A DNA stretch of 52,056 nucleotides from Prevotella sp. (GTDB lineage Bacteria > Bacteroidota > Bacteroidia > Bacteroidales > Bacteroidaceae): contig JAFYDA010000035.1 of NCBI GenBank assembly GCA_017545045.1, positions 1 to 52,056 of the forward strand, read 5' to 3'. Below, piece by piece: positions 10,201 through 51,809 of the stretch (positions are counted from its first letter, which is position 1; each line of letters begins with the position of its first letter). The notes under the pieces were generated by a model. The model searched no databases. It worked only from the letters and a program-made list of their open reading frames with translations, and had not been told where the DNA came from. The position numbers and the translations under genes are program-made.

Positions 10201-11633
10201 AATCCGCCAAGATTGAAATGGAGGAAGTACGCACCGTTCCATTCGATGAGGACGGCCGCGATTGCGAGATGGTAGTTAGCCGTCTTGGAGAAATGCGCTT
10301 TGTGGATCCTCATACCAATATTGTTCTTTCATCGGTAAACATTCCTTATGGTTCATCACTCTATCATAAGAATGGCGACGTGGTCAAGAAAGGCGAGAAG
10401 ATTGCCCAGTGGGATCCGTTCAATGCTGTTATCGTAACAGAGTTTTCAGGTACATTGAAATTCAACGATGTCATTGAGGGTGTCACCTTCCGTGCCGAGA
10501 CCGACGAAACTACTGGTCTGACAGAAAAGATTGTCACTGAGTCAAAAGACAAGACAAAAGTACCAACCTGTGATATCATTGGAGCTGATGGTGAGAAAAT
10601 CGGTACCTACAACTTCCCTGTAGGTGGCCACGTCGTTGTCGAGGACGGTCAGACCGTTAAGACTGGTGAGACTCTCGTCAAGATTCCTCGTGCAGCCGCT
10701 AAAGGTGGTGATATTACCGCTGGTCTGCCGCGTGTCACCGAGCTATTCGAGGCTCGTAATCCATCGAACCCCGCTGTTGTCAGCGAAATCGACGGTGAGG
10801 TTACAATGGGTAAGGTGAAGCGTGGCAATCGTGAGATTATCGTCACATCGAAGACAGGAGAACAACGCAAGTACCTCGTATCTCTTTCAAAGCAAATTCT
10901 TGTGCAGGAGCACGATGCCGTGCGTGCTGGCACCCCACTTTCCGACGGTGCCATCACCCCGAGCGACATCCTTGCCATCAAAGGTCCAACCGCCGTTCAG
11001 GAGTACATCGTCAATGAAGTACAGGATGTGTACCGCCTGCAGGGTATCAAGATTAATGACAAGCATTTCGAGATTATCGTGCGCCAGATGATGCGCAAAG
11101 TACAAATTAACGATCCAGGCGACACTTCTTTCCTCGAACAGGAAGTAGTCGACAAACTCGATTTTGCAGAGGAGAACGACCGCATCTGGGGCAAGAAGGT
11201 GGTGACCGATGCTGGTGCTTCTGAGAACATGAAGCCAGGACAGATTGTCACCGCCCGTCGTCTGCGCGATGAGAACTCCATGCTGAAACGTCGTGACTTG
11301 AAGCTTGTACAGGTGCGTGATGCCGTTCCTGCTACGTCTACGCAAATTCTGCAGGGTATCACCCGTGCAGCATTGCAGACCAAGTCATTCATGTCAGCCG
11401 CCTCATTCCAGGAAACCACCAAGGTACTCAACGAGGCCGCCATTCGTGGCAAGGTTGACAACCTGGAAGGCATGAAGGAGAACGTTATCTGCGGCCACCT
11501 TATTCCTGCAGGTACTGGACTACGCGAATTCGAGAAGATCATTGTTGGATCTAAGGAAGAATACGATCGTATGCAGGCCAACCGTAAGAATGTACTCGAC
11601 TTTGCCGAGGAAGTGGTGCTTGACGAGAACTAA
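7299..11633 (+). CDS. rpoC: DNA-directed RNA polymerase subunit beta'
   Basis: 1444 residues, normal for the phylum. It holds the active-site Mg: [12 protein letters not shown], with Asp484, Asp486 and Asp488. The N-terminal zinc site is [19 protein letters not shown] (about residues 66-88) and the second is [13 protein letters not shown] near 907. The bridge helix and trigger loop region ([19 protein letters not shown], later [13 protein letters not shown]) are intact. The C-terminal omega-contacting region is present. It is cotranscribed with rpoB; metF begins 20 bases downstream on the same strand without a visible terminator. Confidence 0.98.
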
Positions 11634-11653
11634 GCTCACTAGTTGTTGATTTT

Positions 11654-12610
11654 ATGAGCGTCACCAAAATCATCAGTGAACATACCCGTGGGAGGCAGTA
11701 TTCGTTTGAGATACTGCCTCCACTCAAAGGTACGGGCACAGAGAAGCTCTTCGCTGACATTGACAAGCTGGCAGCTTTCAATCCAGCCTTTATTAACATC
11801 ACAACGCACCATACAGAATACGTCTACCGCGAATTGCCAAACGGACAATACGAGCGGTTTCGCGTGCGTCGTCGCCCGGGCACCATTGCTATAGCAGCAG
11901 CTATCCAGCAGCGTTACCATATTCCCGTACAACCGCATATTATCTGTAGCGGTGCTACCGTTGAGGATATTGAGTACGAGCTGCTTGACCTCCAGTTCCT
12001 TGGCATCCATGATCTGCTTCTGCTCCGTGGTGACAAGGTCAAAGAAGATACCCATTTTACCCCCACACCGGGCGGACACGCCCATACCACAGACCTCATC
12101 CGACAGGTACAACGTTTCAATCAGGGATTCTTTGCCGATGGCACCCCCATCAAGCATCCTGGCCATCCATTTGAATTCGGCGTAGCCTGCTATCCCGAGA
12201 AGCATGAGGAGGCTCCCAATATGGAAATGGACCTGCAATACCTAAAGCAAAAGCAAGATTTGGGTGCACAATATGCAGTTACACAATTGTTCTTCGACAA
12301 TCAGAAATACTTCGATTTTGTCAGTCGCGCCCGCAAGGTTGGCATCACCATTCCCATTATTCCTGGTATCAAGCCCATGTCAAAACTATCTCAACTGACT
12401 ATCGTTCCAAAAACGTTCCACTGTGACATTCCAGAGCCACTTGCCCATGAAATTGTCAATTGCCATACTGACGAGGACGCCCGTCAGTTGGGGATAGAAT
12501 GGACTACGGAACAATGTCGCGACCTTTATGCGCATGGTATTAACGACATCCATTTCTACACGGTCTCAGCTGTAGACTCCGTGGTAGAAATAACACGACG
12601 CCTACTATGA
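11654..12610 (+). CDS. metF: 5,10-methylenetetrahydrofolate reductase
   Basis: 318 residues, an FAD-dependent TIM-barrel enzyme that reduces 5,10-methylene-THF to 5-methyl-THF for methionine synthesis. Family motifs are YSFEILPPLKG at the N-terminus (with the catalytic Glu), FINITTHHTEY, PHIICSG, DLLLLRGD and FGVACYPEKHEEAPN. VTQLFFDN and PIIPGIKPMSK near 205-245 complete the folate pocket. It lies 20 bases after rpoC and its stop overlaps the holB start by 4 bases, suggesting translational coupling. Confidence 0.95.
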   Translation: MSVTKIISEHTRGRQYSFEILPPLKGTGTEKLFADIDKLAAFNPAFINITTHHTEYVYRELPNGQYERFRVRRRPGTIAIAAAIQQRYHIPVQPHIICSGATVEDIEYELLDLQFLGIHDLLLLRGDKVKEDTHFTPTPGGHAHTTDLIRQVQRFNQGFFADGTPIKHPGHPFEFGVACYPEKHEEAPNMEMDLQYLKQKQDLGAQYAVTQLFFDNQKYFDFVSRARKVGITIPIIPGIKPMSKLSQLTIVPKTFHCDIPEPLAHEIVNCHTDEDARQLGIEWTTEQCRDLYAHGINDIHFYTVSAVDSVVEITRRLL

Positions 12611-14779: not shown

Positions 14780-16018
14780 ATGGCAATACGCTCACTGACT
14801 ATATTCTTTCTGCTTTTGATGTCGCACATAACGGCAGCTCGTAGCACTGTGTACAGCCCAAAAGTGAAAACGCTCCAAATGGTTGTCAACCAGGACTGGC
14901 TGTCACCACCTGTCATGAGAATAGGCAGCGACGACATACTGAACATAGGCTTCGACGAGTTGTCACACAACTATCACCGCTACATTTATTGGATAGAACG
15001 ATGCGAGGCTGACTGGGCACCATCAGAGGGATTGTTTGAAAGCGACTGGCTACATGGCTTCAACAATAATCCTATTGAAGATTACGAGAACTCGCTGAAC
15101 ACCACCGTGTCCTACACTCACTATCGGCTCCAGATTCCCAACGACCGCTGCCATATCAAGATGAGCGGCAACTACCGATTGCACGTCAGCGACGAGGAGA
15201 ACGATGGCGAGGAGGTGCTCTGTGCTGAATTCTACGTGGTAGAGCCGCGCTTGAACGTGGGACTCAGTGCAACTACCAATACAGACATCGACTTCAACTC
15301 TTCGCACCAACAGGTGTCAATGACGGTGAACTACGATGCCACAATGAACATCACCAATGAAAGCGAACAGATATGGACGGTCGTCATGCAGAATGGTCGT
15401 GAGGACAATTGCAAGATAAACCCACGTCCCGACTATATTCAGCGCAATAAACTACAATGGGTACACTGTCGCGACCTCATCTTCGATGCTGGCAATGAAT
15501 ACCACAAATTTGAGGTGCTCGACGTGAGCCATCCCACAATGGGTATCGACCGCATGTCGTGGGACGGGAACTACTATCAGGCCTACCCCTTTGCAGACAC
15601 GCCTCGGCCTAACTACCTATACGACGAGGATGCTAATGGTTTCTTCTACATTCGCAACAGCGACAACATTGAAAACGACCGCACTAGCGACTATGTTTAC
15701 GTAAATTACCAAATGGGACCTGTTCACCATTATGCTGAGGATATTATCATCGATGGAGTATGGACTACCGAGCATCCCCAAAACTACGTAATGAGCTACG
15801 ACGAAGAGACGCACTGCTATCGGGCCAGCATTCTGCAGAAACAAGGATACTACTCCTATCAATACTTGATACGCGACAGCGACGGACGCACACATGTCCT
15901 GCCCGAGGAAGGATCATTCTTCGAAACGGAAAACAAGTATCAGGCATTTGTCTACTATAAAGGAGTCACCGAACGGACATGGAGGCTGGTTGGCTACCGG
16001 CAGATTGTCCTAAAATAG
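14780..16018 (+). CDS. Type IX secretion system plug protein (DUF5103)
   Basis: 412 residues from the ATG at 14780, which gives a clean signal peptide (MAIRSLTIFFLLLMSHITAA); an in-frame ATG at 14723 would lie inside the GH43 gene. The N-terminal domain (about 28-135) includes YSPKVKTLQMVVNQDW, ILNIGFDELSHNYHRYIYWIERCEADW and NPIEDYENSLNTTVSYTHY, which are the hallmark of the family once called DUF5103. In Flavobacterium the Plug protein seals the periplasmic side of the giant SprA channel of T9SS. The C-terminal half (about 310-410) resembles a second beta-rich domain. Its last 53 bases overlap the convergent regulator gene. Confidence 0.85.
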   Translation: MAIRSLTIFFLLLMSHITAARSTVYSPKVKTLQMVVNQDWLSPPVMRIGSDDILNIGFDELSHNYHRYIYWIERCEADWAPSEGLFESDWLHGFNNNPIEDYENSLNTTVSYTHYRLQIPNDRCHIKMSGNYRLHVSDEENDGEEVLCAEFYVVEPRLNVGLSATTNTDIDFNSSHQQVSMTVNYDATMNITNESEQIWTVVMQNGREDNCKINPRPDYIQRNKLQWVHCRDLIFDAGNEYHKFEVLDVSHPTMGIDRMSWDGNYYQAYPFADTPRPNYLYDEDANGFFYIRNSDNIENDRTSDYVYVNYQMGPVHHYAEDIIIDGVWTTEHPQNYVMSYDEETHCYRASILQKQGYYSYQYLIRDSDGRTHVLPEEGSFFETENKYQAFVYYKGVTERTWRLVGYRQIVLK

Positions 16019-18476
16019 TATGCGTCATCTTTTTACGATATTCTGATGGCGTCATCTTGAACTTATGATAGAATTTCGCCATCATGTAGTTTGGCGAAAC
16101 AAAGTTCGTCTTCTTTGCAATCTGCTCTATGGAGAGTTCGGTAGTTACAAGCAGTTCAGCAACGTTGTCCAAGCGCATAGTCCGAACCAACACACGCGGA
16201 CTCTTGTGGAGATTTTGTGACATCAGCTCATACAGATCCAGGACCTCCATATTTGTGGCTTTTGAAAGCAAATGCATCGTCAGTCGCTTGGTGTCACGCT
16301 CATGTACATAGGGAATTATCTTCAACATCGCCTCTACGAATTCATTGGTCAATTCTCTTTGCGGCTCATTGTCTGTTCCATAAATCTCATCTTGTGTGGG
16401 AGACAGCAGCTCTGAATTATAACCGTCACAACGCTCCACGAATACACTGATACGGCGTATCACGTCACCCTCCTCATTACTACGTCTGATACGCATCCGG
16501 GTGTTTCGGTTGTACACCACAAAGTTCACTACTGCTAAAGCCAGCACGACAAGTCCTAAGAACACAAGAATGAACGTGGCACGCCACCATGGCTGGTTCA
16601 CATTAACCACCCATACTAACGGAGTTCCTTCATACGTTCCCGGCACCACTGACGACTGAAGTTCTATATGGTAAGAACCTGGCTTCAAAGCGAGTAACGG
16701 AAGATGCAGCAAGCCACGACGGTCGACAAGACCAGTTCCGCTGAAGTACGAATACTCTGTCCACTCATTACTAATCTCCTTGATACGAGCTCTATAATAG
16801 GTTTGCAACGGCCGCGCATAATTCAGTGCCGAGAAGGTCAAGGACACTGAGTTCTGGTCGTAGTTGAGGTTGATTTCTTTCGTCCGCGTAATAGCCTTTT
16901 CCAGTATGACCTCACCATTTACCTTCGTCCCTACCGTCACATTAATACCATTCACCAAAAGACTCGTCAACTTTGGATACATCTTGTACGGTTTTTGGTC
17001 AAAAAGATGTACAAAGTCCTGTGGATTAAATTTTACGACATGGTCAATGGCCTGCATCACAATTGTCCCACCCTGCAACTTCATCGCTTTTCCATTGACA
17101 AACGTCTCGTTAGGCACATTGTCATTGTCGCTAAAACTGAACACTTGCTTCACCTTATCGTCCACAATACGCAAACAAGTGATTCCGTAGCTAGTGCTCA
17201 CCCATATATTATGCATGTCGTCCTCTATCACAGCATGTATGACACCATTGAGCAACCCATTCTTTCGCGAATAGACAACAGGTTCAGCCTGAGGAGAGGT
17301 GTACAGAAACAGACCATTCGGAGTACCTACCCACATCCAGTTCCTACTGTCTGTCAGCATCGCATTAGCCTTTTTTCCTCTGAATTCTGTAATGCCTTTC
17401 AGGCCGTCCATCATTGCGCCATATTTCAGAGCGTCATCTTCATCCCAGGAAAACGATTGAAACGGCGCATGCAACGGAGGACCGTAGAGAACACCGCGCT
17501 GTTCTGTGCCAAGCCACATGCCGCCTTGCAGGTCAAACTCCACAGCATTAATGTCCGTCTCCAGGCGATGACCGTTTATCAATGTCAGCGTCTTGTGGTG
17601 AGTAATGATTCCAGTCTCAAACTCATAGGTAAAATATCCCCACTCAGACGCTATATAAAGTTTCTTATCATGGACGACCATATTGTTCAGGTGATAGTCA
17701 GAACGCATGACCTCAGACCATTGTCGGCTATCCATATTATAATACAGAAGAATAGCACCTTTTTCACCATTGCGTATGACGTAGAGACCATGGTCATGTA
17801 TCAGCTGCACACCACTGCGATTGTATATCTTTGCATCATAATCATCATAAGCTCGTCGCTGATAAAGCCTCTTACCTGTCTTGAGATTATAGCAGAGCAT
17901 CAGACCGTCTTCATAGAACAACAGCAGATACTTCTTGTCATAGACCTCCACATCCTGAAGATTCAAATCCGCCTTCAAAGGAATACGGTAATCGTATTTA
18001 TTACAGAAAAGAGAATGGTTAATACACAGCCACACATCACCGTCAATATCAACAAACATGTCGTCAACCCTCTTGCCATCTGAGCCATACGTCTGAAAGA
18101 TACTGTCTACATTAACATAGAAGCGTTCTGTATACAAATTGACACACATCACCCCATGGCTGCTCTTAAGCCACAAATGGTGATTATTGTCGTAATACAA
18201 ATGGTAATGTCCCTGATAATCCACCAACTCATACTTTGATCCCTGATCATTACTAATGTTAGTGAAGCGTGCACCGTCATAGAAGTTGATATCGCCTATG
18301 GTCGATATGGTCATACGTCCTGAGTATGTGCATTTGACAGTCTGAGCCGAATTGTCCGCTATCCCATCCGATGCCGTTATCGTACGGAACACACGATCTC
18401 CGTCAATGGCAGCCGTCAGGCGGATACACACTGTCAAAAGCAGAGATATAAGCTTCAGTCTATCAGTTGATGTCAT
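15966..18476 (-). CDS. Transmembrane AraC-type regulator with periplasmic propeller sensor
   Basis: 836 residues. A signal peptide or N-terminal anchor spans about 1-23. A long beta-propeller sensor (about 25-510) contains repeats such as NHHLWLKSSHGVMCV, GGMWLGTEQRGVLYG, NWMWVGTPNGLFLY and NIWVSTSYGITCL. A Y_Y_Y-type domain (about 550-640; LNYDQNSVSLTFSALNYARP) is followed by one transmembrane helix (about 652-675). The cytoplasmic part ends in an AraC-type double HTH (SIEQIAKKTNFVSPNYMMAKFYHKF). This is the layout of Bacteroides hybrid two-component sensors with the kinase and receiver removed: only about 60 residues lie between helix and HTH. It is probably a one-component signal-to-DNA regulator for a glycan locus; target unknown. 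Confidence 0.85.
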   Translation of the reverse strand: MTSTDRLKLISLLLTVCIRLTAAIDGDRVFRTITASDGIADNSAQTVKCTYSGRMTISTIGDINFYDGARFTNISNDQGSKYELVDYQGHYHLYYDNNHHLWLKSSHGVMCVNLYTERFYVNVDSIFQTYGSDGKRVDDMFVDIDGDVWLCINHSLFCNKYDYRIPLKADLNLQDVEVYDKKYLLLFYEDGLMLCYNLKTGKRLYQRRAYDDYDAKIYNRSGVQLIHDHGLYVIRNGEKGAILLYYNMDSRQWSEVMRSDYHLNNMVVHDKKLYIASEWGYFTYEFETGIITHHKTLTLINGHRLETDINAVEFDLQGGMWLGTEQRGVLYGPPLHAPFQSFSWDEDDALKYGAMMDGLKGITEFRGKKANAMLTDSRNWMWVGTPNGLFLYTSPQAEPVVYSRKNGLLNGVIHAVIEDDMHNIWVSTSYGITCLRIVDDKVKQVFSFSDNDNVPNETFVNGKAMKLQGGTIVMQAIDHVVKFNPQDFVHLFDQKPYKMYPKLTSLLVNGINVTVGTKVNGEVILEKAITRTKEINLNYDQNSVSLTFSALNYARPLQTYYRARIKEISNEWTEYSYFSGTGLVDRRGLLHLPLLALKPGSYHIELQSSVVPGTYEGTPLVWVVNVNQPWWRATFILVFLGLVVLALAVVNFVVYNRNTRMRIRRSNEEGDVIRRISVFVERCDGYNSELLSPTQDEIYGTDNEPQRELTNEFVEAMLKIIPYVHERDTKRLTMHLLSKATNMEVLDLYELMSQNLHKSPRVLVRTMRLDNVAELLVTTELSIEQIAKKTNFVSPNYMMAKFYHKFKMTPSEYRKKMTHTILGQSAGSQPASMSVR

Positions 18477-20174: not shown

Positions 20175-22967
20175 ATGAACCTCATGATCAGATATTTTAA
20201 CAAACTGTTTTTGACTGTAGCGCTATCATTCATGTGGATGTCAGTCTTCGCAGTGCGCGATAGCATCAGTCACTCCTATACAGAGGAGCAGCCTCTGGTC
20301 TATGAAGATGCATGGGACTTGTGGCCCTACTCGTTCCTAAACGACACAGGCGATCCTATGGGCTACAACATCGACCTTCTGAAACTCATCTTCAAGGAAC
20401 TGGACATCCCCTACATCATCAAGCTGAAGCCCACTCAAGACGCCCTGAACGACCTGAAGTCCGGACGCGCCGACCTGATGTGCGGTATGGATGCACACTT
20501 CCATAATGAGTATGCACAATACGGCAAGAGTGTCATTCAAGTATTCACTCACAGCGTTGTACACCGAAAAGACGAGCCGCTACTCGTTAAGACCTTCAAC
20601 GATTTGGCTTCACAATCGGTTATTGTCCACGACGGCAGTTTTAGCCATCACATCATGATACAAAAGGGATGGGGCAAAAATGCCATCCCCTACAACGACA
20701 TGCAGGAGGCCGTCCAATTTGTCCATAACAAGAAAGGGTATCACATTGTTTGGAACACGCTATCGTTGAAATGGCTTCTTCACAAATTCAAATACGACGA
20801 CCTTGAGATGACTCCTGTCAACGTCCCGCATGGCGAGTATAAGTTCATGTCAAATGATTCCCGCCTGTTAGAGCAGATTGACAGCGTCTTCACTTATTTG
20901 AATTCCACTGGCCGCCTACAGCCCATCCAGAACAAGTGGTTCTATCCTGAGCGCAAAGACACGGGCATTCCCTCATGGGTGTGGTATGTTGTCGCTGCGC
21001 TGTTTTTAGTCATCGTCACCTTTATCATCTACTATATTTCCTTTAGTCTGTATGAACGGAGAATGACAAAAAGCGTAAAACGCTCCAACAACCGTCTGTT
21101 ACTCATTCTCAATACAAGCAAGGTGCACATCTGGCTGTTCGATATTGCCAAGCGGACCATTACCAGCATTGACCTCGAAGGCAAGCAGACGAGCAACCAA
21201 CTGTCACCATATTTCCTTCAATACTACATGGTTCCTGAAGACTATGAGCGGCTCTGTAGCGTGCTCGATGAGATAGCTACAGAGAAAATTGAGCACAAGA
21301 CGCTCGAAGTCCACGTCACAAGGGGAAAATCGAAAGATCTGTTCATCTTCTCCCTCGATCTCTCAGTGATGAAGCGCAACAGGAGCGGACATCCCACCGT
21401 CATCATTGGAGCCACCACTAACGTCACTGAGGAACGGTTGCGCCAACAGCGTGAGAAGGACACCATGCTTCGCTACAAACACATTTTCAACTCGGCCATG
21501 GTCGACACCGTTTCTTACGATGAGCACGGCTTCATTGACGACATGAACGAGAAGTCTCTCAAGGCCATGCCTGGTAACATCCAGCATGTCATCGATTCAC
21601 ATATTTCTGTTCAGGATGTATTAGGGACTCCAGAATTGTCTCTTAACGATATGGACTACACCTACCTGACACAGATATACAAGTCGCCAGACGATCCGCG
21701 TCCTCTCAACCAGTTCTTAAAGCGCGATGAACTTTACTATGAGTTACAGATGGTGCCCGTACGCGATGACGACGGCAACCTGTTGGGCATCTACGGGACA
21801 GGACGCGATGTCACAGAGATAGCCAAGACCTATTCACGCCTACAGAAGAATATTGCACAGTTACAGGAGGCAACGGACGAAATGCAGGACTACATGCGCA
21901 ACATCGACTACGTGATGCAGAACGGTGGCATACGCATTGTCAATTATTCTCCCGACACACACACATTGCTTATCTTCAGCGAGATTGAGCACGTCCAACA
22001 CCAGCTGACACAAACCCGTCTGCTGTCACTCGTTGCTGATGAATCGGAGAAGACCGCCCAGCGTATTCTGAACAACATGGACAACCTCACTCAGCAGCCC
22101 GTCAAGGCGGCAATCAAATCCTCCGTGCGCATGAAAGGAGGCAAGCAGCTCTGCCTGTATTTCTCGTTCATACCGGTTTTCGATGCCGACGGACAAATCA
22201 CACATTACTTTGGCATGTGCCGTGACATCAGCGACATCAAAGCCACTGAGGAGCAGCTGGCGCATGAGACGGCGAAAGCACAAGAGGTGGAGACGGTGAA
22301 AAACGCCTTCCTACGCAACATGAGCTACGAAATCAGAACGCCGCTCACCTCTGTGGTAGGTTTTGCCGAACTCTTCGAGATGGACCATAGTGCTGAGGAC
22401 GAGAAATTCTTCATTGAGGAAATCAAGAACAACTCGCGTGGTCTGCTCAACCTGGTCAACAACATTCTGTTCCTCTCGCGTCTCGATGCCGACATGATAG
22501 AATTCAAGACAGCACCTGTCGACTTTGCAGCATTCTTCGATGGACGCTGTCAGGCCGTATGGATACACCACCGACAGCCAGGTGTCAACTACATCGTCAA
22601 CACGCCCTACGACCGCCTTATCCTCGACATCGACATCAATAACTTAGGACTCGTTATCGACCATGTCGTGACCAATGCTGCACAGCATACCACATCGGGC
22701 TCTGTTTGTGCAAGTTTCGACTATAACGGCGAAGACCTCACGATGACCATCCAGGATACGGGATGCGGCATTCCTGATGACAAGATTGATAAAATCTTTG
22801 AGCGCTTCGTTACCACCGACAGCAGCAGCAACGGACTTGGCCTGGCTATCAGTAAGGAGGTCGTCAAGCTGATGGGCGGCAGAATACGCCTTAAATCCGA
22901 ACTTGGCAAGGGCACTATCGTCTGGATTATCATTCCATGCACATGCAGGGAGATGGTGAGGAAATAA
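20175..22967 (+). CDS. Sensor kinase with SBP-like sensor and His-to-Tyr substitution
   Basis: 930 residues (ATG at 20184 is also possible). A signal peptide (about 1-27) precedes a periplasmic SBP_bac_3-like domain (about 35-262; QPLVYEDAWDLWPYSF, GYNIDLLKLIF, LKSGRADLMCGM). One transmembrane helix spans about 268-290. PAS-like domains follow (about 300-660), then a coiled linker and the HisKA region. There the usual NMSHEIRTPL reads NMSYEIRTPL: codon TAC at 22326-22328 gives Tyr718 in place of the phospho-accepting His. The HATPase domain keeps its boxes (DTGCGIP, FERF, GLGLAI). ATP binding may remain, but autophosphorylation on His cannot occur; it is probably a pseudokinase partner of the next gene. 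The coding sequence starts well after frr; a much longer open frame antisense to rsgA/frr was disregarded. Confidence 0.88.
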   Translation: MNLMIRYFNKLFLTVALSFMWMSVFAVRDSISHSYTEEQPLVYEDAWDLWPYSFLNDTGDPMGYNIDLLKLIFKELDIPYIIKLKPTQDALNDLKSGRADLMCGMDAHFHNEYAQYGKSVIQVFTHSVVHRKDEPLLVKTFNDLASQSVIVHDGSFSHHIMIQKGWGKNAIPYNDMQEAVQFVHNKKGYHIVWNTLSLKWLLHKFKYDDLEMTPVNVPHGEYKFMSNDSRLLEQIDSVFTYLNSTGRLQPIQNKWFYPERKDTGIPSWVWYVVAALFLVIVTFIIYYISFSLYERRMTKSVKRSNNRLLLILNTSKVHIWLFDIAKRTITSIDLEGKQTSNQLSPYFLQYYMVPEDYERLCSVLDEIATEKIEHKTLEVHVTRGKSKDLFIFSLDLSVMKRNRSGHPTVIIGATTNVTEERLRQQREKDTMLRYKHIFNSAMVDTVSYDEHGFIDDMNEKSLKAMPGNIQHVIDSHISVQDVLGTPELSLNDMDYTYLTQIYKSPDDPRPLNQFLKRDELYYELQMVPVRDDDGNLLGIYGTGRDVTEIAKTYSRLQKNIAQLQEATDEMQDYMRNIDYVMQNGGIRIVNYSPDTHTLLIFSEIEHVQHQLTQTRLLSLVADESEKTAQRILNNMDNLTQQPVKAAIKSSVRMKGGKQLCLYFSFIPVFDADGQITHYFGMCRDISDIKATEEQLAHETAKAQEVETVKNAFLRNMSYEIRTPLTSVVGFAELFEMDHSAEDEKFFIEEIKNNSRGLLNLVNNILFLSRLDADMIEFKTAPVDFAAFFDGRCQAVWIHHRQPGVNYIVNTPYDRLILDIDINNLGLVIDHVVTNAAQHTTSGSVCASFDYNGEDLTMTIQDTGCGIPDDKIDKIFERFVTTDSSSNGLGLAISKEVVKLMGGRIRLKSELGKGTIVWIIIPCTCREMVRK

Positions 22968-23005: not shown

Positions 23006-25786
23006 ATGATACAATATATGTTTCGAAACGGGAAAAGGTATATGACCCTGCTCTTTTACCTTTTTACCTTTTTACCACTCCTGCATTCTGCCAATAATTT
23101 CGGCTATACGAAAGAGCGCCCGTTGGTTATCGTCTGCGACTGGGATTTTCGCCCTTTCGAGTTCATCAACGTTGAGGGACAACCCGCTGGGTATAATATT
23201 GAAATACTTGACCTCATTCTTGACCAGCTCGACATTCCACACAAGTTCGTCATGCAGGAATGGCATGTAGCTACCAATATGTTCAAGAACCATGAGGCCG
23301 ACCTTATTCATGCCCTGTATTTCTTCTTTAAGGACGACCCCTACGTATCTACCCATAAATACATCAACTATTACAACCTGAAAGTGGCACGCCGTGCCGA
23401 CACGGCTCCCTTGAACCGGCTCAGCAACCTTCTGCCAACCGACACACTACTTATCAAGGAGGACGACTATGCCGCCATGACCCTCAACGCCATGAAGCCT
23501 CTGACGTTTGCAACGCAGATCCATTCACCGAAGGACGGTCTGACAGGCATCAGACAAGGCAAGTACAAATACTACATCTGGGGAGAGATTCCCCTCAGCT
23601 ATAAAATTCAGGAACTCAGACTCGACAGCATTGCTCTTGACAAAATTGACATCCCTGCGGGCGAACTGCGCATCATTGGCTACAACAAAGACCTGATTGA
23701 CATCATTGATGACCAGTACACCCGACTGGAACAGGCTGGCGATCTACAACAGATTTACGACCACTGGTTCCATCCAGAACGTGAGCACGACAACACATCA
23801 CCCGTGGTGCTGTTCATCCTCGCTGGACTTTTCATTGGAGCTATTATCACATTTCTGTCCATACGGCTTATCAGACGGAGGGTAGCCATGGCCATCAGGC
23901 AGAGTTCTGACCTGGGACGAATGATGGACCAAGTGCTCAACATGGGCGACTACTCCGTTGTGGAATGGGACATCCAGAGCAACAAGTTCCATAATAAATA
24001 TGGCGACATGCTTCCCAACAGCGATATGAAGCCCGAGGACTTCTTGAAGCACATGCCGCCGGAGGAGTCGAAACAGCTTTATACCCTCAACACCCAGCTG
24101 ATTACAGGCATGATCAGCTACTTCGACATGAGCTTCAGTTTCAACCATGGTTCGGTGGAATCCCCCCAATGGCATCATTACTACTGCAACGCCATCATTG
24201 AGAAAGAAAACGACAAGCCGCTCTACGTTGTTTACACGATAAAAGACATCACCGAAGAATTGGACGAAGACCGCCGCATCAAGACCACAGCCAGCAAATA
24301 CAAGAAGATGTTCGACACCAATCTGATTGCCATGTCTTTCTACGATGCCGACGGCAACCAGATTGACCTCAATCAGAAGATGCGCGATCTTTGCCAGATG
24401 GACGGCGAGAACGAACACTACTACATAGACAGTTCACTTTTCAGCATCCCCGCTCTCAAAGGTATCTATCTGCCTGGCTCTCGCGAAGAGTTTCACACCT
24501 GCCAGCATTTGAAGGAGCCACAGCTTGGACTCAACAAATACACCGAGCTGCGTATTAATCCCATCTTCAACGACGATGGCGAAATAGTCTACTACATTGT
24601 CACCAGCCGCGACGTCACCGCTGAGCGCAACATGTATCTGAAACAGCGAGAACACGACCGACAGCTCCATGCAACCAACAAGGACATTAAACGCTACGAG
24701 CAGCAACTCAGCTACTTGTTGGAGGAGAGCAAGATGTATATTTGGAACTACATGTTGTCGGATAATGTCGTCTACATGACACGTTCCCCCGGACGCACTG
24801 AATTCAGTGAATCCTTTGATGAATACCTTCAGTCCGTCAAAGCCGATGCCCGTCAGAAGGCAAGAGAACAAATACAGAGCGCCATGCAACAGGGCCAGCC
24901 CTACAACGTCATCCTGCCTTTCGACCGGACGCCACTTGACGACCAACCCACATGGTACTCTATCATCGGCATCCCTATACTCAACAAGGACGGACAACTC
25001 ACAGAATACTTCGGACTTGCACGCAACATCACCGACCTCATGCAAGCACAGGAACAGTTGCGCATTGAGACGGCACGCGCCGAAGACTCCGGACGCCTCA
25101 AGGCAGCTTTCCTTGCCAACATGACGCACGAGATACGCACTCCTCTCAATGCCATCGTGGGATTCTCCGACCTTTTGCCCATGATAGAAGACAGCAACGA
25201 CAAGAAAGAGTTCATGCGCATTATCCGCAACAACTGCGACATGCTCCTAAGGCTTATCAACGATATTCTCGAAGCATCCGACATCGGTTCACGACCGATG
25301 ACCATCGAGCCTTCAGACGTTGATTTCGCCCAAGCTTTCGATGACATCTGCCAGACACTTGAGCAACGTGTAAAAGAGCCAGGCGTACGCTTCATCAAGG
25401 AAAATCCATACGCCACTTTCCATACGCGCCTTGACAAAGGACGCATGCAGCAGGTGATTACCAACTTTGTCACCAATGCCGTCAAGTACACCCACCAAGG
25501 CCATATCCGCGTGGGCTACAAGGCAGAAAGTCGAGGAGAGAGAGAGGGACTCTATATCTACTGCGAGGATACAGGTGCCGGCATTCCCAAAGAGAAGCAA
25601 GCCTCCGTCTTTGAGCGCTTCGTCAAACTCAACGAGTATGTGCAGGGAACGGGCCTCGGTCTAAGCATCTGCAAGTCCATTGCCGACCGCTGCAATGGAG
25701 TCATCGGCGTTGACAGCGAAGGCGAAGGCCACGGCTCCACCTTCTGGATATGGATTCCCTGCCCCGTCCCGACTCAAAATCCATAA
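23006..25786 (+). CDS. Sensor histidine kinase with SBP-like sensor domain
   Basis: 926 residues; starts at 23018 or 23042 are also possible and all leave a signal peptide (LLFYLFTFLPLLHSA). The SBP_bac_3-like domain (about 35-260; ERPLVIVCDWDFRPFEF, GYNIEILDLIL, DHWFHPERE) is clearly paralogous to the preceding gene. A transmembrane helix spans about 266-288, followed by PAS-like segments (about 310-660). The HisKA motif is intact: FLANMTHEIRTPLNAIVGF with His708 (codon 25127-25129). The HATPase boxes NFVTNAVKYT, DTGAGIP, FERF and GTGLGLSI are all present. There is no receiver domain at the C-terminus. It follows the Tyr-substituted kinase by 38 bases and precedes an AraC gene by 6, so the three form one operon. 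The ligand is unknown; the fold suggests a small solute such as an amino acid. Confidence 0.9.
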   Translation: MIQYMFRNGKRYMTLLFYLFTFLPLLHSANNFGYTKERPLVIVCDWDFRPFEFINVEGQPAGYNIEILDLILDQLDIPHKFVMQEWHVATNMFKNHEADLIHALYFFFKDDPYVSTHKYINYYNLKVARRADTAPLNRLSNLLPTDTLLIKEDDYAAMTLNAMKPLTFATQIHSPKDGLTGIRQGKYKYYIWGEIPLSYKIQELRLDSIALDKIDIPAGELRIIGYNKDLIDIIDDQYTRLEQAGDLQQIYDHWFHPEREHDNTSPVVLFILAGLFIGAIITFLSIRLIRRRVAMAIRQSSDLGRMMDQVLNMGDYSVVEWDIQSNKFHNKYGDMLPNSDMKPEDFLKHMPPEESKQLYTLNTQLITGMISYFDMSFSFNHGSVESPQWHHYYCNAIIEKENDKPLYVVYTIKDITEELDEDRRIKTTASKYKKMFDTNLIAMSFYDADGNQIDLNQKMRDLCQMDGENEHYYIDSSLFSIPALKGIYLPGSREEFHTCQHLKEPQLGLNKYTELRINPIFNDDGEIVYYIVTSRDVTAERNMYLKQREHDRQLHATNKDIKRYEQQLSYLLEESKMYIWNYMLSDNVVYMTRSPGRTEFSESFDEYLQSVKADARQKAREQIQSAMQQGQPYNVILPFDRTPLDDQPTWYSIIGIPILNKDGQLTEYFGLARNITDLMQAQEQLRIETARAEDSGRLKAAFLANMTHEIRTPLNAIVGFSDLLPMIEDSNDKKEFMRIIRNNCDMLLRLINDILEASDIGSRPMTIEPSDVDFAQAFDDICQTLEQRVKEPGVRFIKENPYATFHTRLDKGRMQQVITNFVTNAVKYTHQGHIRVGYKAESRGEREGLYIYCEDTGAGIPKEKQASVFERFVKLNEYVQGTGLGLSICKSIADRCNGVIGVDSEGEGHGSTFWIWIPCPVPTQNP

Positions 25787-25792
25787 CGCACG

Positions 25793-26671
25793 ATGGCCAC
25801 ACAAACCAGCAAATATCTGCTCGCCAATGAGCGCGATGCGCTCTGGGGCCTCACCGTCAGCACGGTGGGCTACGAGGAGATTGCTCCTGGCGATGCTTAT
25901 CCCACCCGCGGCCATGCCGACGGCTACTATTTCGACCTCCACCGTGGACGCGAGCTCAACGAGTATCAGCTACTCTACTTGACAGAAGGCAGTGGAACGT
26001 TCCATAGTGCAACCGTCAAGGAAGCCAAGCTGACAGAAGGCGACCTCTTTCTGCTTTTTCCTGGCGAATGGCACTCTTATCATCCCGACCCCAAGACGGG
26101 ATGGAAGAGCTACTGGATAGGATTCAAGGGACGAAACATGGACGACAGGGTACGTTCCGGATTCCTGAGTCCCGTCAAGCCCATCTACCATGTTGGCTTC
26201 AGTGATGAAATCGTCCACCTGTATAAGGAAGCCTACGACTCCGCCGTCATTGAGGCCGCTTATTCCCAACAGCTCATGGCCGGTATTGTCAACCATCTGA
26301 TAGGCATGATGTACTCGCTGGAACGCAATATCCAGCTGAGCCACAACCAGTCGCATGTCGATATGATCAGCAGGGCACGCCTCCGCATCCGTGAAGCCCT
26401 GGAGAGTGACCTCACGATTCAGCAGGTAGCAGAGGAGATGGGCGTCAGCTACTCCAACTTCCGCAAGTTGTTCAAGGAATACACCGGACTATCACCCGCT
26501 ACCTACCAGCAGGATCTGCGACTGCAGCGAGCCAAGGAATTGCTGTCGACCACGGACTTGAGCATCAAGGAAATAGCCTACAAGCTGAACTTCGAGTCGC
26601 CAGACTATTTCTCTGCCAAGTTCAAGGCAAAGACGGGACGTCGTCCCAGTGAACTGCGTCCCGCAAAATAA
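25793..26671 (+). CDS. AraC-family regulator with cupin sensor domain
   Basis: 292 residues. The N-terminal half is an AraC-type cupin (about 15-140): ELNEYQLLYLTEGSGTFHSA, LTEGDLFLLFPGEWHSYHPD and GWKSYWIGFKG. The C-terminal AraC double HTH (about 200-290) contains LTIQQVAEEMGVSYSNFRKLFKEYTG and LSIKEIAYKLNFESPDYFSAKFKAKTG. Such proteins usually bind a sugar in the cupin and activate catabolic genes. No receiver domain is present, so it is not an orthodox partner of the two upstream kinases despite the 6-base gap. It ends 4 bases before the convergent dehydratase gene. Confidence 0.9.
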   Translation: MATQTSKYLLANERDALWGLTVSTVGYEEIAPGDAYPTRGHADGYYFDLHRGRELNEYQLLYLTEGSGTFHSATVKEAKLTEGDLFLLFPGEWHSYHPDPKTGWKSYWIGFKGRNMDDRVRSGFLSPVKPIYHVGFSDEIVHLYKEAYDSAVIEAAYSQQLMAGIVNHLIGMMYSLERNIQLSHNQSHVDMISRARLRIREALESDLTIQQVAEEMGVSYSNFRKLFKEYTGLSPATYQQDLRLQRAKELLSTTDLSIKEIAYKLNFESPDYFSAKFKAKTGRRPSELRPAK

Positions 26672-38779: not shown

Positions 38780-40024
38780 ATGTTAGAGTTGTTGTTAGTC
38801 ACTCAGAAAGATTCTGGGATTACGCAAATGCTGATATGGGTGGTGGGAGCCATACTCTTGCTACTTTTGACATTGTTGCTGTTCTGGCAGCGCAAGCAAG
38901 GACGGGAACTGGTGTCGGAGCTTGAACAACTTGACAAGGTGAAAAAGCACAACATCGAGTTTGAATTTGTGCTGAAAGCCATGAAGCTGTCCACGTGGTA
39001 TATTGATGCGGAAGCACGTACACTAACGTTCAACAATGACTTTCGTGACCGTACAGACTCCTATGTTCCCGAGCCAGAGACACCGCTGGAAGAAATCTTC
39101 AAGAAGGTGGCATCAAGAGACAGGGAACGTTTTGCCAAGGCTGTGGAGGATTTGTGCAGCGGCCGTATAGAATATCTTCACGAAATATTCCAGGTGAAGT
39201 CGCCTCACACAAAAAAGAACTATTGGTCGGAAACATACGCTACGGTGGCGGCCCGCAATACAGAAGGCTTGCCAAAATCCATCGTCGGAACATCGACACG
39301 GGTTGACGAGCGAAAAGCCATGGAAGTGGCATTGGTGGAAGCACGTAACAAAGCTGAGGAGAGCGACCGTCTGAAGTCGGCTTTCATTGCTAACATGAGC
39401 CATGAGATACGTACGCCGCTGAATGCCATCATAGGCTTTACCTGTGTGCTTCCTGACGTGCAGTCAGATGAAGAGCGTAAGGGGCTGATTGATTTGATAC
39501 AGGAGAACAACCAGAAGTTGCTGCAGATTATCGATGACGTGATGAACATCTCGAAAATTGAATCAGGAAAAGAGAAGCTGGTGATGTCTACTTTCGAACT
39601 GAACGATGTCCTGCGGAATGTCGTGGATACTTATATGCCGCAGGTAAAGGGAGGTGTGAACATTTCTACAATGTTCGCCCAAGGCATGCTGAATGTCACC
39701 ACCGACCTGGGTCGCTTGATGGAAATCCTGAACCATCTGATGTCGAATGCCGTAAAGTTTACCTCTGAAGGGAATATTATCCTGGGATATGATGCGCCCG
39801 CTGACAAACGGATTCGTATCTGGGTGCGGGATACGGGCAAGGGAATTGGGCCGGAGCATCTGGAACGTGTGTTCGAACGTTTCTTCAAGGTTGATGAATA
39901 TATACCGGGAGCGGGACTTGGACTGAGTATCTGCCGAACAATGGCCTACAGCATGGGAGGTGACGTCGGCGTGGAGTCAAAACTTGGTGAAGGGTCTAAG
40001 TTCTGGCTGGAAATACCCGTGTAG
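38780..40024 (+). CDS. Orphan sensor histidine kinase
   Basis: 414 residues (ATG at 38828 is an alternative). One transmembrane helix (about 17-36; MLIWVVGAILLLLLTLLLFW) leaves almost no periplasmic domain. A PAS-like domain occupies about 58-175 (AMKLSTWYIDAEARTLTFNNDF). HisKA is intact: FIANMSHEIRTPLNAIIGF with His208. The HATPase boxes NHLMSNAVKFT, DTGKGIG, FERFF and GAGLGLSI are all present. There is no receiver domain and no response regulator nearby. It lies 18 bases before the Wzi-like gene and probably heads that envelope operon. Confidence 0.92.
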   Translation: MLELLLVTQKDSGITQMLIWVVGAILLLLLTLLLFWQRKQGRELVSELEQLDKVKKHNIEFEFVLKAMKLSTWYIDAEARTLTFNNDFRDRTDSYVPEPETPLEEIFKKVASRDRERFAKAVEDLCSGRIEYLHEIFQVKSPHTKKNYWSETYATVAARNTEGLPKSIVGTSTRVDERKAMEVALVEARNKAEESDRLKSAFIANMSHEIRTPLNAIIGFTCVLPDVQSDEERKGLIDLIQENNQKLLQIIDDVMNISKIESGKEKLVMSTFELNDVLRNVVDTYMPQVKGGVNISTMFAQGMLNVTTDLGRLMEILNHLMSNAVKFTSEGNIILGYDAPADKRIRIWVRDTGKGIGPEHLERVFERFFKVDEYIPGAGLGLSICRTMAYSMGGDVGVESKLGEGSKFWLEIPV

Positions 40025-46616: not shown

Positions 46617-47867
46617 TCAGCGCTTTGAGGTCACGTCCTTTTCATACTTCTGGATGCAGGCGATGAATTCCTCGCCCACGGGCACGTTGTTCTTCAGGTT
46701 GAAGTAGTCGTAGACGGCACCGAAGGGCATCGACTTGGCTTCCTCCATCAGGGCGAGGCGCTCGAAGAACTGGCCGTTGTCCTCGTATTCGCGCAGCTTC
46801 TGCTTCGGCTCGAGCAGGGCCTGGAGGATGCACTTCTGCGTGGCGCGGCTGCCGACGATGTAGGCACCGATGCGGTTGATGCTGGCGTCAAAATAGTCAA
46901 GGCCGACGTGGGCGCGGTCCAATGCGTCGCTGCGCACCAGCTCCTTAAAGAGGTCGAGCGTCTGGTCGTTCATGATGGTCACGTGGTCGGAGTCCCAGCG
47001 CACGGGGCGGCTGACGTGGAGCATCAGCTCGGGCACGTACATCAGCAGGGTCGAGACGAAGTCGCTGACGTTCTCCGTTGGCTCGTAGTGGCCGGTGTCG
47101 AGGGTGTAGATGCACTTGCGGGTGGCGCAGTAGGCGGTGTAGAAGTCGTGGCTGCCCACGGTGTAGCTCTCAAGACCGATGCCGAAGAGCTTGGCCTCGA
47201 AGCAGTTCTTCACCCAGTCGAGCTTCTCCTCCATGATCTCGTCGAGCGAGGCGGCAAGAATCTCGCGGTACTTCTTGCGCTGCACGGGGATGTCCTTCAT
47301 GCCGTCGTGCACCCAGATGTTCATGATGCAGGGGTCGTTCTGGGCCTTACCCATGGCGTCGGCAATCTTGCGGCAGCGCTTGGTGTGCTCAATCCAGAAG
47401 TCGCGGATGCCCTTGTCGGGGTTCGAGAGTGAGAGGTCGCCGCTCTTCGGGTGGGAGAACGAGGTGCTGTTGAAGTCGAGCTTCATGTTGTTCTCCTTGG
47501 CCCAGTCAATCCAGCTCTGGAAATGCTCCACGCTGCACTGGTCGCGGTCGACGAACTTGCCGCCGAAGTCGCCATATATCTCATGGAGGTTCAGGCGGTG
47601 GTTGCCGCCGAGGAGGGTCTTCACGAACTCAATGTCCTGGCGTACCTCGTCGATGGTGCGGGCGCGGCCGGGATAGTTGCCGGTGGTCTGGATGCCGCCG
47701 GAGAGGGCCTCGTTGCGCTCGAAGCCGACCACGTCGTCGGTCTGCCAGCAGTGCAGGGAGAGCTGCTGACGCTGGAGCTGGTCAAGTACTGCGTCGGTGT
47801 CGACGCCAATGGCTGCGTAGCGCTCTTTCGCCACGGCATAAGCCTGTTCAATCAGATTTGCTTTCAT
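46617..47867 (-). CDS. rhaA: L-rhamnose isomerase
   Basis: 416 residues, the normal length. The enzyme interconverts L-rhamnose and L-rhamnulose using two metal ions in a TIM barrel. Family-specific stretches are QQLSLHCWQTDDVVGFE, NLHEIYGDFGGKFVDRD, LDFNSTSFSHPKSGDLSLS, MNIWVHDGMKDIPVQR and LHVSRPVRWDSDHV. It lies in one unit with rhaB; the rhaB-GH115-rhaA order is unusual. No rhamnulose-1-phosphate aldolase or transporter gene is in the window. Confidence 0.95.
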   Translation of the reverse strand: MKANLIEQAYAVAKERYAAIGVDTDAVLDQLQRQQLSLHCWQTDDVVGFERNEALSGGIQTTGNYPGRARTIDEVRQDIEFVKTLLGGNHRLNLHEIYGDFGGKFVDRDQCSVEHFQSWIDWAKENNMKLDFNSTSFSHPKSGDLSLSNPDKGIRDFWIEHTKRCRKIADAMGKAQNDPCIMNIWVHDGMKDIPVQRKKYREILAASLDEIMEEKLDWVKNCFEAKLFGIGLESYTVGSHDFYTAYCATRKCIYTLDTGHYEPTENVSDFVSTLLMYVPELMLHVSRPVRWDSDHVTIMNDQTLDLFKELVRSDALDRAHVGLDYFDASINRIGAYIVGSRATQKCILQALLEPKQKLREYEDNGQFFERLALMEEAKSMPFGAVYDYFNLKNNVPVGEEFIACIQKYEKDVTSKR

Positions 47868-50288: not shown

Positions 50289-51772
50289 TACTTCTTGCTA
50301 ACGATATTCAGGTATTTGGTGTATGCCTCATCCCAGAGTGCTTTCTCCTGCGGCTCGTACTTCACCATCTCCGTGGAGTTGGCAATGATGGCGCGCATCT
50401 GCCAGATGTCGTTCACCAGCCTTGCGGCCTTGGCCTGCAGCATGATGTTGCCGATGGCGGTGCACTCCTGCGGGCCGGCCAGGACGGTGGCACCGGTGGA
50501 GCTGGCGGTGAACTGGTTGAGGTATTTGTTCAGCGAGCCGCCGCCGATGATGTGCAGGGTGTCCAGCTTGAAGGGTGCAAACTCCTGCAGCCAGGAGAAC
50601 ACCTGCCGGTAGCGCAGGGCCAGCGAGTCGAAGATGCAGCGGCAGATTTCGGCTGGCGTCTCGGGAACGGGCTGGTTGGTGTCGCGGCAGTATTTCTGTA
50701 TGGCACCAATCATGCTGGCCGGGGCGGCGAAGGCCTGGTCGTCGGGGTTGATGAGCGAGCGGAACGGTTCCACCTGCATGGCCGAGCCTTGCAATTCCGG
50801 GTGCGACAGCTTGCGCACCTCCTCGGGCCACTCCAGCCGGCAGCGCTCGTAAAGCCACATGCCGCAGATGTTTTTCAGGAAGCGGGTGGTGCCCTCGATG
50901 CCGCCCTCGTTGGTGAAGTTGCGCTCGTAGGAGAGCTCGCTGATGATGGCGTCCTTCGTCTCGATGCCCATGAGGCTCCACGTGCCGCTCGAGAGGTAGG
51001 CGAAATGCTCGTCCTTGGCGGGCACGGCGGCCACAGCGCTGCCCGTGTCGTGGCCGGCGACGGCGATGACGGGCACAGGGCCGAGGCCGGTCAGCCGCTG
51101 CACCTCGTCGGTGAGCATGCCGACCACCGTTCCCGGCTGCACCATGCGGCCGAACTTCGAGCGCGACAGGCCCAGCGAGGCCAGCAGGCGCTCGTCGAGC
51201 AGCTTGGTGCGCGGGTCGAGCAGCTGCGACGTCGAGGCGATGGTATATTCACACACCTCGTTGCCGGTGAGCATCCAGCTCAGGGCATCGGGCACGAAGA
51301 GAATCTTCGCAGCGTTGCGGAAGGCTGAGTTCTGCTCGCGCTTCATGGCATAGAGCTGGAAGATGCTGTTGAAGTTCATGAACTGGATGCCGGTGACGTC
51401 GTAGACCTCACGGCGGGAAACGACGTGCTGCAGATAGTCGTCCATGGCGTCGAAGGTGACGGGGTCGCGATAGGCGCGGGGATTGCGCAGGATGGCGCCG
51501 TCGTCGCCGATGAGGACGAAGTCCACGCCCCAGGTGTCGATGCCTATCGAAGTAATCTCCAAGCCGCGCTTGGCCACCTCTTTCAGGCCTCGGAGAATCT
51601 CGAAGTACAGGGCGTGGATGTCCCAGTAGTAGTGGCCGCCCTGCTCTATCAGGTTATTGGGGAAGCGGGTCACCTCCTCCAGCGCAAGTTTTCCATCGGC
51701 AATGTTGCCCACAATAGTCCGTCCGCTGGTAGCGCCCAGGTCGACGGCAAAGAAATACGCTTTATGGTCCAT
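50288..51772 (-). CDS. rhaB: Rhamnulokinase
   Basis: 494 residues from the ATG at 51772; an in-frame ATG at 51802 overlaps the -7 box. An FGGY-type kinase that phosphorylates L-rhamnulose. The N-terminal phosphate loop is VDLGATSGRTIVGNI. Substrate and ATP residues lie in IGIDTWGVDFVLIGDDG, VAGHDTGSAVAAVPA and the C-terminal LHIIGGGSLNKYLNQFTA. It is first of the rhaB-GH115-rhaA-S9 unit and immediately follows the only promoter seen. Confidence 0.94.
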   Translation of the reverse strand: MDHKAYFFAVDLGATSGRTIVGNIADGKLALEEVTRFPNNLIEQGGHYYWDIHALYFEILRGLKEVAKRGLEITSIGIDTWGVDFVLIGDDGAILRNPRAYRDPVTFDAMDDYLQHVVSRREVYDVTGIQFMNFNSIFQLYAMKREQNSAFRNAAKILFVPDALSWMLTGNEVCEYTIASTSQLLDPRTKLLDERLLASLGLSRSKFGRMVQPGTVVGMLTDEVQRLTGLGPVPVIAVAGHDTGSAVAAVPAKDEHFAYLSSGTWSLMGIETKDAIISELSYERNFTNEGGIEGTTRFLKNICGMWLYERCRLEWPEEVRKLSHPELQGSAMQVEPFRSLINPDDQAFAAPASMIGAIQKYCRDTNQPVPETPAEICRCIFDSLALRYRQVFSWLQEFAPFKLDTLHIIGGGSLNKYLNQFTASSTGATVLAGPQECTAIGNIMLQAKAARLVNDIWQMRAIIANSTEMVKYEPQEKALWDEAYTKYLNIVSKK

Positions 51773-51801
51773 AAAAAAAACAGTTTTAAGTTTTATGTGC
51801 A

Positions 51802-51809
51802 CAAAGGTA
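51802..51809 (-). promoter_or_regulatory. -7 box of the rhaB operon promoter
   Basis: TACCTTTG on the minus strand (51809 to 51802) lies 29 bases before the rhaB ATG. The expected -33 position (about 51829-51833) does not hold TTTG, which would fit an activator-dependent promoter. No activator gene is in the window. Confidence 0.55.

Follow-up and report, generated by a model that had tools for sequence, protein, structure and literature searches.

A sensor kinase of Prevotella with tyrosine at its phospho-accepting site, paired with an intact kinase: a putative pseudokinase partner

What role is left to a sensor kinase whose phosphate-accepting residue has been replaced? The question is raised by a gene that we call HK1 (20175..22967, + strand), found on contig JAFYDA010000035.1 of a draft Prevotella sp. 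genome (GCA_017545045.1; 2.36 Mb, 59% complete). The whole stretch analysed, 52,056 nucleotides long, is referred to below as the window. HK1 is an open frame of 930 amino acids, in which the codon TAC at 22326..22328 (+) places a tyrosine, Tyr718, within FLRNMSYEIRTPL in place of the phospho-accepting histidine. A second kinase gene, HK2, begins 38 bases past the HK1 stop codon and is canonical. The answer that we favor, with a probability of roughly two in three, is that HK1 is a sensor pseudokinase acting on HK2 as a regulatory partner, probably in a mixed complex and perhaps also as a phosphatase.

Pfam searches of HK1 found an SBP_bac_3 sensor domain, putatively periplasmic (residues 49-256; 20319..20942, +; 1.1e-13), a PAS domain (PAS_9; residues 587-687; 21933..22235, +; 4.2e-11), a HisKA (DHp) domain (residues 709-772; 22299..22490, +) and a HATPase_c domain (residues 820-921; 22632..22937, +; 4.3e-25). 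The two kinase domains scored well above the curated cut-offs (53.9 versus 26.9 bits for HisKA, 88.7 versus 26.4 bits for HATPase_c). An AlphaFold2 model of HK1 had a mean predicted local distance difference test score (pLDDT) of 82.1 and a predicted template modeling score (pTM) of 0.34, the sensor being modeled confidently and the kinase core mostly so. The sensor matched the solved structure 3h7m, a solute-binding-type kinase sensor, in sequence (E 7.9e-12) and in fold (TMt 0.85). Fold matches of HK1 included YycG with ADP (TMt 0.86) and DivL (4q20_B; TMt 0.82, 30% identity).

The ATP-binding domain of such kinases carries the boxes known as N, G1, F and G2. The original prediction, made from the DNA alone, had reported the tyrosine, which the sequence bore out, and had described all ATP-binding boxes as kept. 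This was true of G1 (DTGCGIP; 22755..22775, +), F (FERF) and G2 (GLGLAI; 22833..22850, +), but not of the N box (22662..22691, +), which it had not listed. The N box reads H830-VVT-N834-AA-Q837-HT; the corresponding HK2 sequence is NFVTNAVKYT, against HVVTNAAQHT here. HK1 retains the catalytic Asn834, but the first asparagine has become His830 and the lysine Gln837. With a kinase fold that is evolutionarily retained and a catalytic residue that is absent, HK1 fits the description of a pseudo-histidine kinase. Judged by its sequence, HK1 cannot autophosphorylate at the H-box position because tyrosine has replaced the histidine, and it is from the absent histidine alone that we infer a lack of autokinase activity. 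HK2 (23006..25786, +) has the same domain architecture by Pfam and alignment, and bears its phospho-accepting residue, His708 (25127..25129, +), in ANMTHEIRTPL.

Two clades of paired kinases

In FastTree trees of kinase cores, from which the column of the altered site had been removed beforehand, a clade A containing HK1 split from a clade B containing HK2. A quick IQ-TREE run on 120 representatives recovered clade A as one clade (Shimodaira-Hasegawa-like approximate likelihood ratio test 99), and did not resolve clade B as one clade. The site held tyrosine in 133, histidine in 28, phenylalanine in 11, glutamate in two and asparagine in one of 175 clade A members, so that histidine was absent in 147. 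In clade B it was histidine in 169 of 169. The full set of histidine, N-box asparagine, lysine or arginine, G1 and G2 was found together in none of the 175 clade A members versus all 169 members of clade B; the N-box asparagine and lysine were present in all 147 clade B rows of the alignment in which the HK1 N box was read.

These counts depend on how relatives were gathered. The best 80 of 158 contig matches to HK1 gave 79 loci, a genus search gave 30 more and a class search a few, and 20 regions of 19 genomes were then added for their divergence; the composition of the clades is thus no random sample. The fetched loci yielded 304 distinct kinase cores, identical domain sequences being merged, and the 20 divergent regions added more. 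Domains had to cover at least 75% (later 70%) of a model of 235 positions, which excluded, for example, the clade A core of locus L115. Clade A comprised 176 rows, 175 of them readable at the site, with one gene of the window's own genome counted twice (L003, L131). Members were called long or short by N-terminal length from the first ATG, with the cut at 590 residues; for residue counts by subtype (111 long, 62 short) the duplicate was dropped and two more rows were omitted. The SBP_bac_3 domain was confirmed by Pfam in the window and at L057 only.

The relatives were assigned to Prevotella, Xylanibacter, Prevotellaceae or Bacteroidales (one to an 'uncultured bacterium'), and many were ruminant metagenome assemblies. 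HK1 was matched at E 1e-30 or better in 94 of 200 genomes of the genus, both kinase types mixed, and at 1e-40 in 4 of 295 genomes of the class. The only full-length matches in the class search came from two genomes of the genus, that of the window and one that we call G642. By these sequence searches, the paired family appears to lie within the genus.

Genes of the two clades alternated. Gene order was counted in 99 loci (L039-L117 and L137-L156, with L001-L038 excluded), of which 60 had the order A-B-A-B and 29 the order A-B, the other ten being a cut form or having one gene extra. A clade B gene directly followed 158 of 164 clade A genes, and the remaining six were each the last kinase of the locus, at most 2.3 kb from its end. 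The 158 A-B junctions comprised 24 that overlap as ATGA, 120 with an in-frame ATG at most 30 nt from the stop and 14 with neither. Four clade B genes had no counted clade A gene before them: those of L042, L061 and L097 are the first kinase of their locus, and at L115 a clade A reading frame is present with its core under the length cut. N-terminal lengths agreed within pairs as well (92 long/long, 61 short/short, 3 mixed, 2 cut), giving a match in 153 of 156 scorable pairs; the three mixed pairs may be start-codon artifacts.

Some clade B genes run into the clade A gene of the next pair. Five of the 68 close B-to-A junctions lacked a stop codon and formed one open frame (L042:4105-8679, L084:3961-8697, L088:3991-8760, L097:2-4135 and L098:3973-8769), in which the sequence passes from where the ATP domain of B ends, directly or via a short linker, into the signal region of A. 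Three of the five look alike, and by eye they represent about three events. An AlphaFold2 model of a natural B-A fusion fragment showed a single chain with two complete kinase cores (mean pLDDT 76.7, pTM 0.39).

Both clades are constrained. The median ratio of nonsynonymous to synonymous substitution (dN/dS) was 0.143 (0.041-0.505) for clade A and 0.179 (0.057-0.490) for clade B, over 71 non-independent pairs each; by this measure clade A is under purifying selection, as is clade B. The claim that HK1 is a complete gene and no ordinary case of decay was upheld by the open frames, the tyrosine in relatives and the low dN/dS. Likewise, the question of whether tyrosine is conserved where the downstream kinase is present was answered positively (133 of 175 tyrosine; 158 of 164 in the order A then B).

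Changes at the site itself were traced on the trees. Parsimony on the first tree gave a clade A ancestor with tyrosine and 13 changes, six of them from tyrosine to histidine; phenylalanine arose several times on this tree. On the larger tree the ancestral state was tyrosine or phenylalanine, and 19 amino acid changes stood against 43 third-base changes at the codon; we therefore read the site as one where a ring-bearing residue has been kept. Orthologues with histidine, which the original prediction had named as grounds for refuting it, do exist in 28 of 175 cases. They are nested inside clade A, and therefore look like returns and not the rule, and none is fully canonical. Histidine was found at both sites in none of the 66 loci with two clade A genes (one first site unreadable); because a rough hand estimate expected only about one such locus, this was not used as evidence. 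Two related members, L114:11492-14350 (NMMEEIRNPL) and L155 (kinase core 11523-12209), have glutamate at the site, and it is possible that this glutamate permanently mimics the phosphorylated state.

Loss of the remaining catalytic residues was graded. In the most basal clade A group (L143 with tyrosine, L144 and L156 with phenylalanine), the N box and G2 are canonical. The long subtype kept the N-box asparagine in 97, the first G1 glycine in 106 and the last G2 glycine in 94 of 111 members, with glutamine at the N-box lysine position in 77; the short subtype kept the N-box asparagine in 8 and the last G2 glycine in 3 of 62. Because the basal members lack the histidine while their N box and G2 are canonical, the histidine was probably the first loss, followed in some lineages by that of the ATP site. 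The E-x-x-T motif was largely retained (glutamate in 107 and threonine in 106 of 111 long members; glutamate in 60 and threonine in 52 of 61 readable short ones). Valine replaced the threonine in nine short members, and two long members had glutamine for threonine and serine for glutamate.

Loss of the histidine is infrequent elsewhere. A published count, in the section of that source concerned with it, gives 722 of 76,471 HisKA domains (0.9%) as lacking it (PMC12632262). Among the 60 HisKA hits of two closed genomes from the genus, histidine was present in 58 (8 of the 60 read by eye); the two others were a clade A gene with phenylalanine and an unrelated hit with lysine. The lysine (NINKEIRKP) lies in a frame of 1398 aa that has two HisKA hits, and occurs in one of the two (L250; G642:C1:3134362-3134565). 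When 296 genomes of the phylum were scanned for the exact pattern, the tyrosine box turned up only in the window's genome and in a single kinase that is not of clade A. A hybrid kinase outside clade A, from another family of the class (L127:1114-2607, +), has HisKA, HATPase_c and receiver domains by Pfam; it too reads NMSYEIRTPL, an independent His-to-Tyr change, and has the N-box asparagine and lysine.

Candidate roles for HK1

The mechanism that we propose begins with what HK1 retains, namely a solute-binding-type sensor, PAS domains, DHp helices with E-x-x-T and most of the ATP-binding domain. HK1 and HK2 would be produced at the same time and assemble into a mixed complex, probably as a DHp-DHp heterodimer or as a larger complex of the two (or four) kinases. 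A signal perceived by HK1 itself would then shift HK2 between kinase and non-kinase states, and the E-x-x-T of HK1 may let it drain phosphate from a shared response regulator. HK1 would thus serve HK2 as a second sensory input or as a brake. The conserved partner, the conserved fold, the selection and the missing histidine acceptor can all be read in the sequences; it is from these that we infer the complex and the direction of control. Also in favor of this reading are the separation of the two clades on the trees, the gene order, the matching lengths, the in-frame fusions and the retention of E-x-x-T, and DivL, and RetS acting on GacS, are precedents for control of a partner. The interpretation first offered, in which HK1 would sense a ligand and modulate a partner, may hold, and gains partial support in that a complete, selected, lineage-wide protein without the histidine stands beside an intact kinase.

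Several observations weigh against this reading. Histidine is present at the site in 20 of 111 members of the long subtype to which HK1 belongs, and histidine-bearing L043 and L049 are about 72% identical to HK1. Eighteen of the 28 histidine rows keep the N-box asparagine, G1 and G2, with glutamine (15) or histidine (3) at the lysine position; the gene listed as both L003 and L131 enters this tally twice. Kinases of the NtrB type carry glutamine at this position, so that some histidine-bearing clade A members may be active kinases. The pair L152/L153 lacks E-x-x-T as well. The fusions join the B of the first pair to the A of the second, and not the partners of one pair, and the five may reflect only about three events. 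Adjacency and dN/dS would fit any shared pathway and not a complex alone. Lastly, a receiver model run on 100 loci, including the whole window, did not find a response regulator of the pair; all 8 hits lay in loci with a PhoB homologue.

The strongest competitor, which we consider unlikely, is that HK1 is a kinase-minus, phosphatase-plus homodimer that dephosphorylates the response regulator of HK2 and leaves HK2 itself untouched. E-x-x-T is retained in most clade A members despite the loss of histidine, and the conserved histidine is described as not essential for HisKA phosphatase activity in a source that, in its discussion of the matter, nevertheless argues against phosphatase activity as the general role of pseudo-histidine kinases (PMC12632262). 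The catalytic core of RetS, whose ATP domain is degenerate, is reported in the relevant passages to speed the dephosphorylation of GacS-P, an activity that needs HExxT (PMC5992135). Yet E-I-R-T-P doubles as a structural signature of HisKA, the motif has changed in the nine short and two long members described above, and because L152/L153 lack it a phosphatase role cannot cover the whole clade. The tyrosine precedent DivL had no phosphatase activity in the experiments described in that part of its account (PMC4211667). Moreover, the matching lengths and B-A fusions suggest that the two kinases share more than a common regulator.

Phosphorylation in trans, with the ATP domain of HK1 as the kinase half of a heterodimer and His708 of HK2 as the acceptor half, appears considerably less probable. 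The N-box asparagine and the G1 and G2 glycines that the long subtype mostly keeps would suit such a role, as would the mostly confident model of the HK1 ATP domain. However, all 169 clade B kinases own a complete set of ATP-site residues, the N-box lysine is lost in HK1, and the short subtype has so seldom kept the asparagine and the last G2 glycine that clade A as a whole cannot work in this way. We give still less credence to phosphorylation of Tyr718 itself, by which HK1 would be a tyrosine-phosphorylated signaling kinase. Tyrosine is indeed the commonest residue at the site, but phenylalanine has arisen there several times and occupies it in two of the three most basal members; as a general role, phosphotyrosine was rejected on the phenylalanine, asparagine and glutamate members. 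Least of all do we credit a recent mutation, a sequencing error or the decay of one gene. His and Tyr codons are one transition apart and the genome is an incomplete draft, but tyrosine in most relatives, open frames and low dN/dS speak otherwise: error or strain mutation was rejected because orthologues share the tyrosine, and relaxed decay was rejected by dN/dS and the codon counts.

A wider picture can also be drawn, to which we give somewhat less than even odds. Rumen Prevotella would have built-in receptor kinases of two and four subunits, in which a pseudokinase without histidine and an intact sister of matching build form heterodimers; this unit would have been copied whole into A-B-A-B arrays, some of them with chains joined by fusion. 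Labor would be stably divided, in that one half would both sense and gate while the other does the chemistry, and residues would have been lost in the order histidine, N-box lysine, whole ATP site.

Genes around the pair

A gene for an AraC-type regulator with an AraC_binding domain by Pfam (25793..26671, +) starts 6 bases past HK2. Homologues of this gene occur in 28 of the 99 other loci, and some stand at rhamnose genes. At L156 the genes next after the homologue are those for rhamnulokinase, L-rhamnose isomerase and RhaT, so that kinases, regulator and rhamnose genes are contiguous; at L143 it is followed by a rhamnulokinase homologue. In two of four regions from genomes outside the genus, a homologue of the regulator (39 and 46% identical) stands near rhaB, rhaA and rhaT, and neither region contains anything matching HK1 or HK2. 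RhaR of Bacteroides thetaiotaomicron is described, in the portions of two studies that deal with it, as an AraC-type regulator (PMC3878776, PMC3870299). The gene after HK2 is probably its counterpart. The window itself contains RhaA, encoding L-rhamnose isomerase (46617-47867, -; Pfam and homology), and a rhamnulokinase-like gene (50288-51802, -) that is 66% identical to the L156 rhamnulokinase; both lie 20-25 kb downstream of the regulator. The genome's second pair, on contig C94, has a clade A member with histidine, and no rhamnose gene match was found in the 19 kb that surround it. We regard a connection of the HK1/HK2 pair to rhamnose as a lead only.

Upstream of the pair are genes for ribosome recycling factor and RsgA, and downstream is a gene for a CitMHS-family transporter by Pfam; their homologues occur in 62, 56 and 37 of 79 loci (L039-L117), respectively. 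A response regulator adjoining the pair was rejected, as receiver hits were confined to the loci with a PhoB homologue; at L156, PhoB is named beside PhoR. Short receiver proteins encoded in frames of 124-142 aa in G642 (2149805-2150125 and 613910-614245) and in genome G117 (1294777-1295112 and 2971808-2972134) are candidate regulators, not tied to HK2.

Two more signaling genes were noted in the window. One (15966-18476, -) encodes a protein of 836 aa that combines two-component-regulator propeller repeats with an AraC-type helix-turn-helix. Pfam found no kinase or receiver domain in it, and it resembles a hybrid sensor-regulator that has lost its phosphorelay. The other (38780-40021, +) encodes a further HisKA/HATPase_c kinase of 414 aa with histidine in the box and no receiver by Pfam.

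Comparison with known systems

Pseudo-histidine kinases as a kind are already known, and to our knowledge DivL is the main known case with tyrosine. Hsing and Silhavy reportedly described substitutions of EnvZ H243. Studies of bacterial two-component pseudokinases were few by 2014, according to the pertinent lines of one source (PMC5361649), and we found no report of pairs of this kind in Bacteroidota in the open-licence PubMed Central literature. The present family is large and natural, has a built-in partner, loses its catalytic residues by degrees, and varies among tyrosine, phenylalanine, histidine, glutamate and asparagine at the decisive site. Its natural variants make the role of a kinase that has lost its phospho-acceptor testable by comparison, and the family offers a model for obligate kinase-kinase complexes.

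Some known systems resemble the pair in part. Kinases of the BvgS/EvgS type combine periplasmic solute-binding sensors with receiver and Hpt domains in a single protein. An SBP_bac_3-type sensor, PAS and HisKA are common to them and HK1; unlike them, HK1 and HK2 are two separate tandem kinases, one of which lacks the histidine, and Pfam found no receiver or Hpt domain in either. The subfamily II ethylene receptors of plants are histidine-less kinases that work in mixed complexes with histidine-bearing sisters; they have another sensor domain and are related to HK1 in the kinase core only.

The closest likenesses are to DivL of Caulobacter crescentus and RetS of Pseudomonas aeruginosa. DivL and HK1 both have tyrosine at the phospho-accepting site (Tyr550 in DivL) and a complete HisKA and HATPase_c fold. 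As set out in the sections of the study that treat it, DivL is a pseudokinase controlling another kinase, CckA: it binds a phosphorylated regulator and steers the partner kinase without kinase or phosphatase activity of its own, and changing the tyrosine to histidine did not by itself restore activity, the phosphorylated regulator then stimulating the mutant (PMC4211667). Unlike DivL, HK1 has a solute-binding-type sensor, a gene directly before that of its presumed partner, and a host of the Prevotella group. Sequence and fold searches did not place HK1 nearer to DivL than to ordinary kinases, the HK853 and YycG structures matching equally well or better. RetS is portrayed, in the passages that concern its action, as unable to autophosphorylate, inhibiting GacS, taking its phosphate and acting as a phosphatase (PMC5992135). 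Its degenerate ATP domain, devoid of G boxes, and its kept E-x-x-T recall most of the short clade A subfamily, which alone resembles RetS in the ATP domain. Unlike RetS, which has its own histidine and receiver domains, HK1 has neither histidine nor receiver and keeps its G boxes. By analogy, HK1 may work like DivL or RetS and yet represent a separate case, in which the tandem arrangement, the duplication into arrays and the graded loss are what is new.

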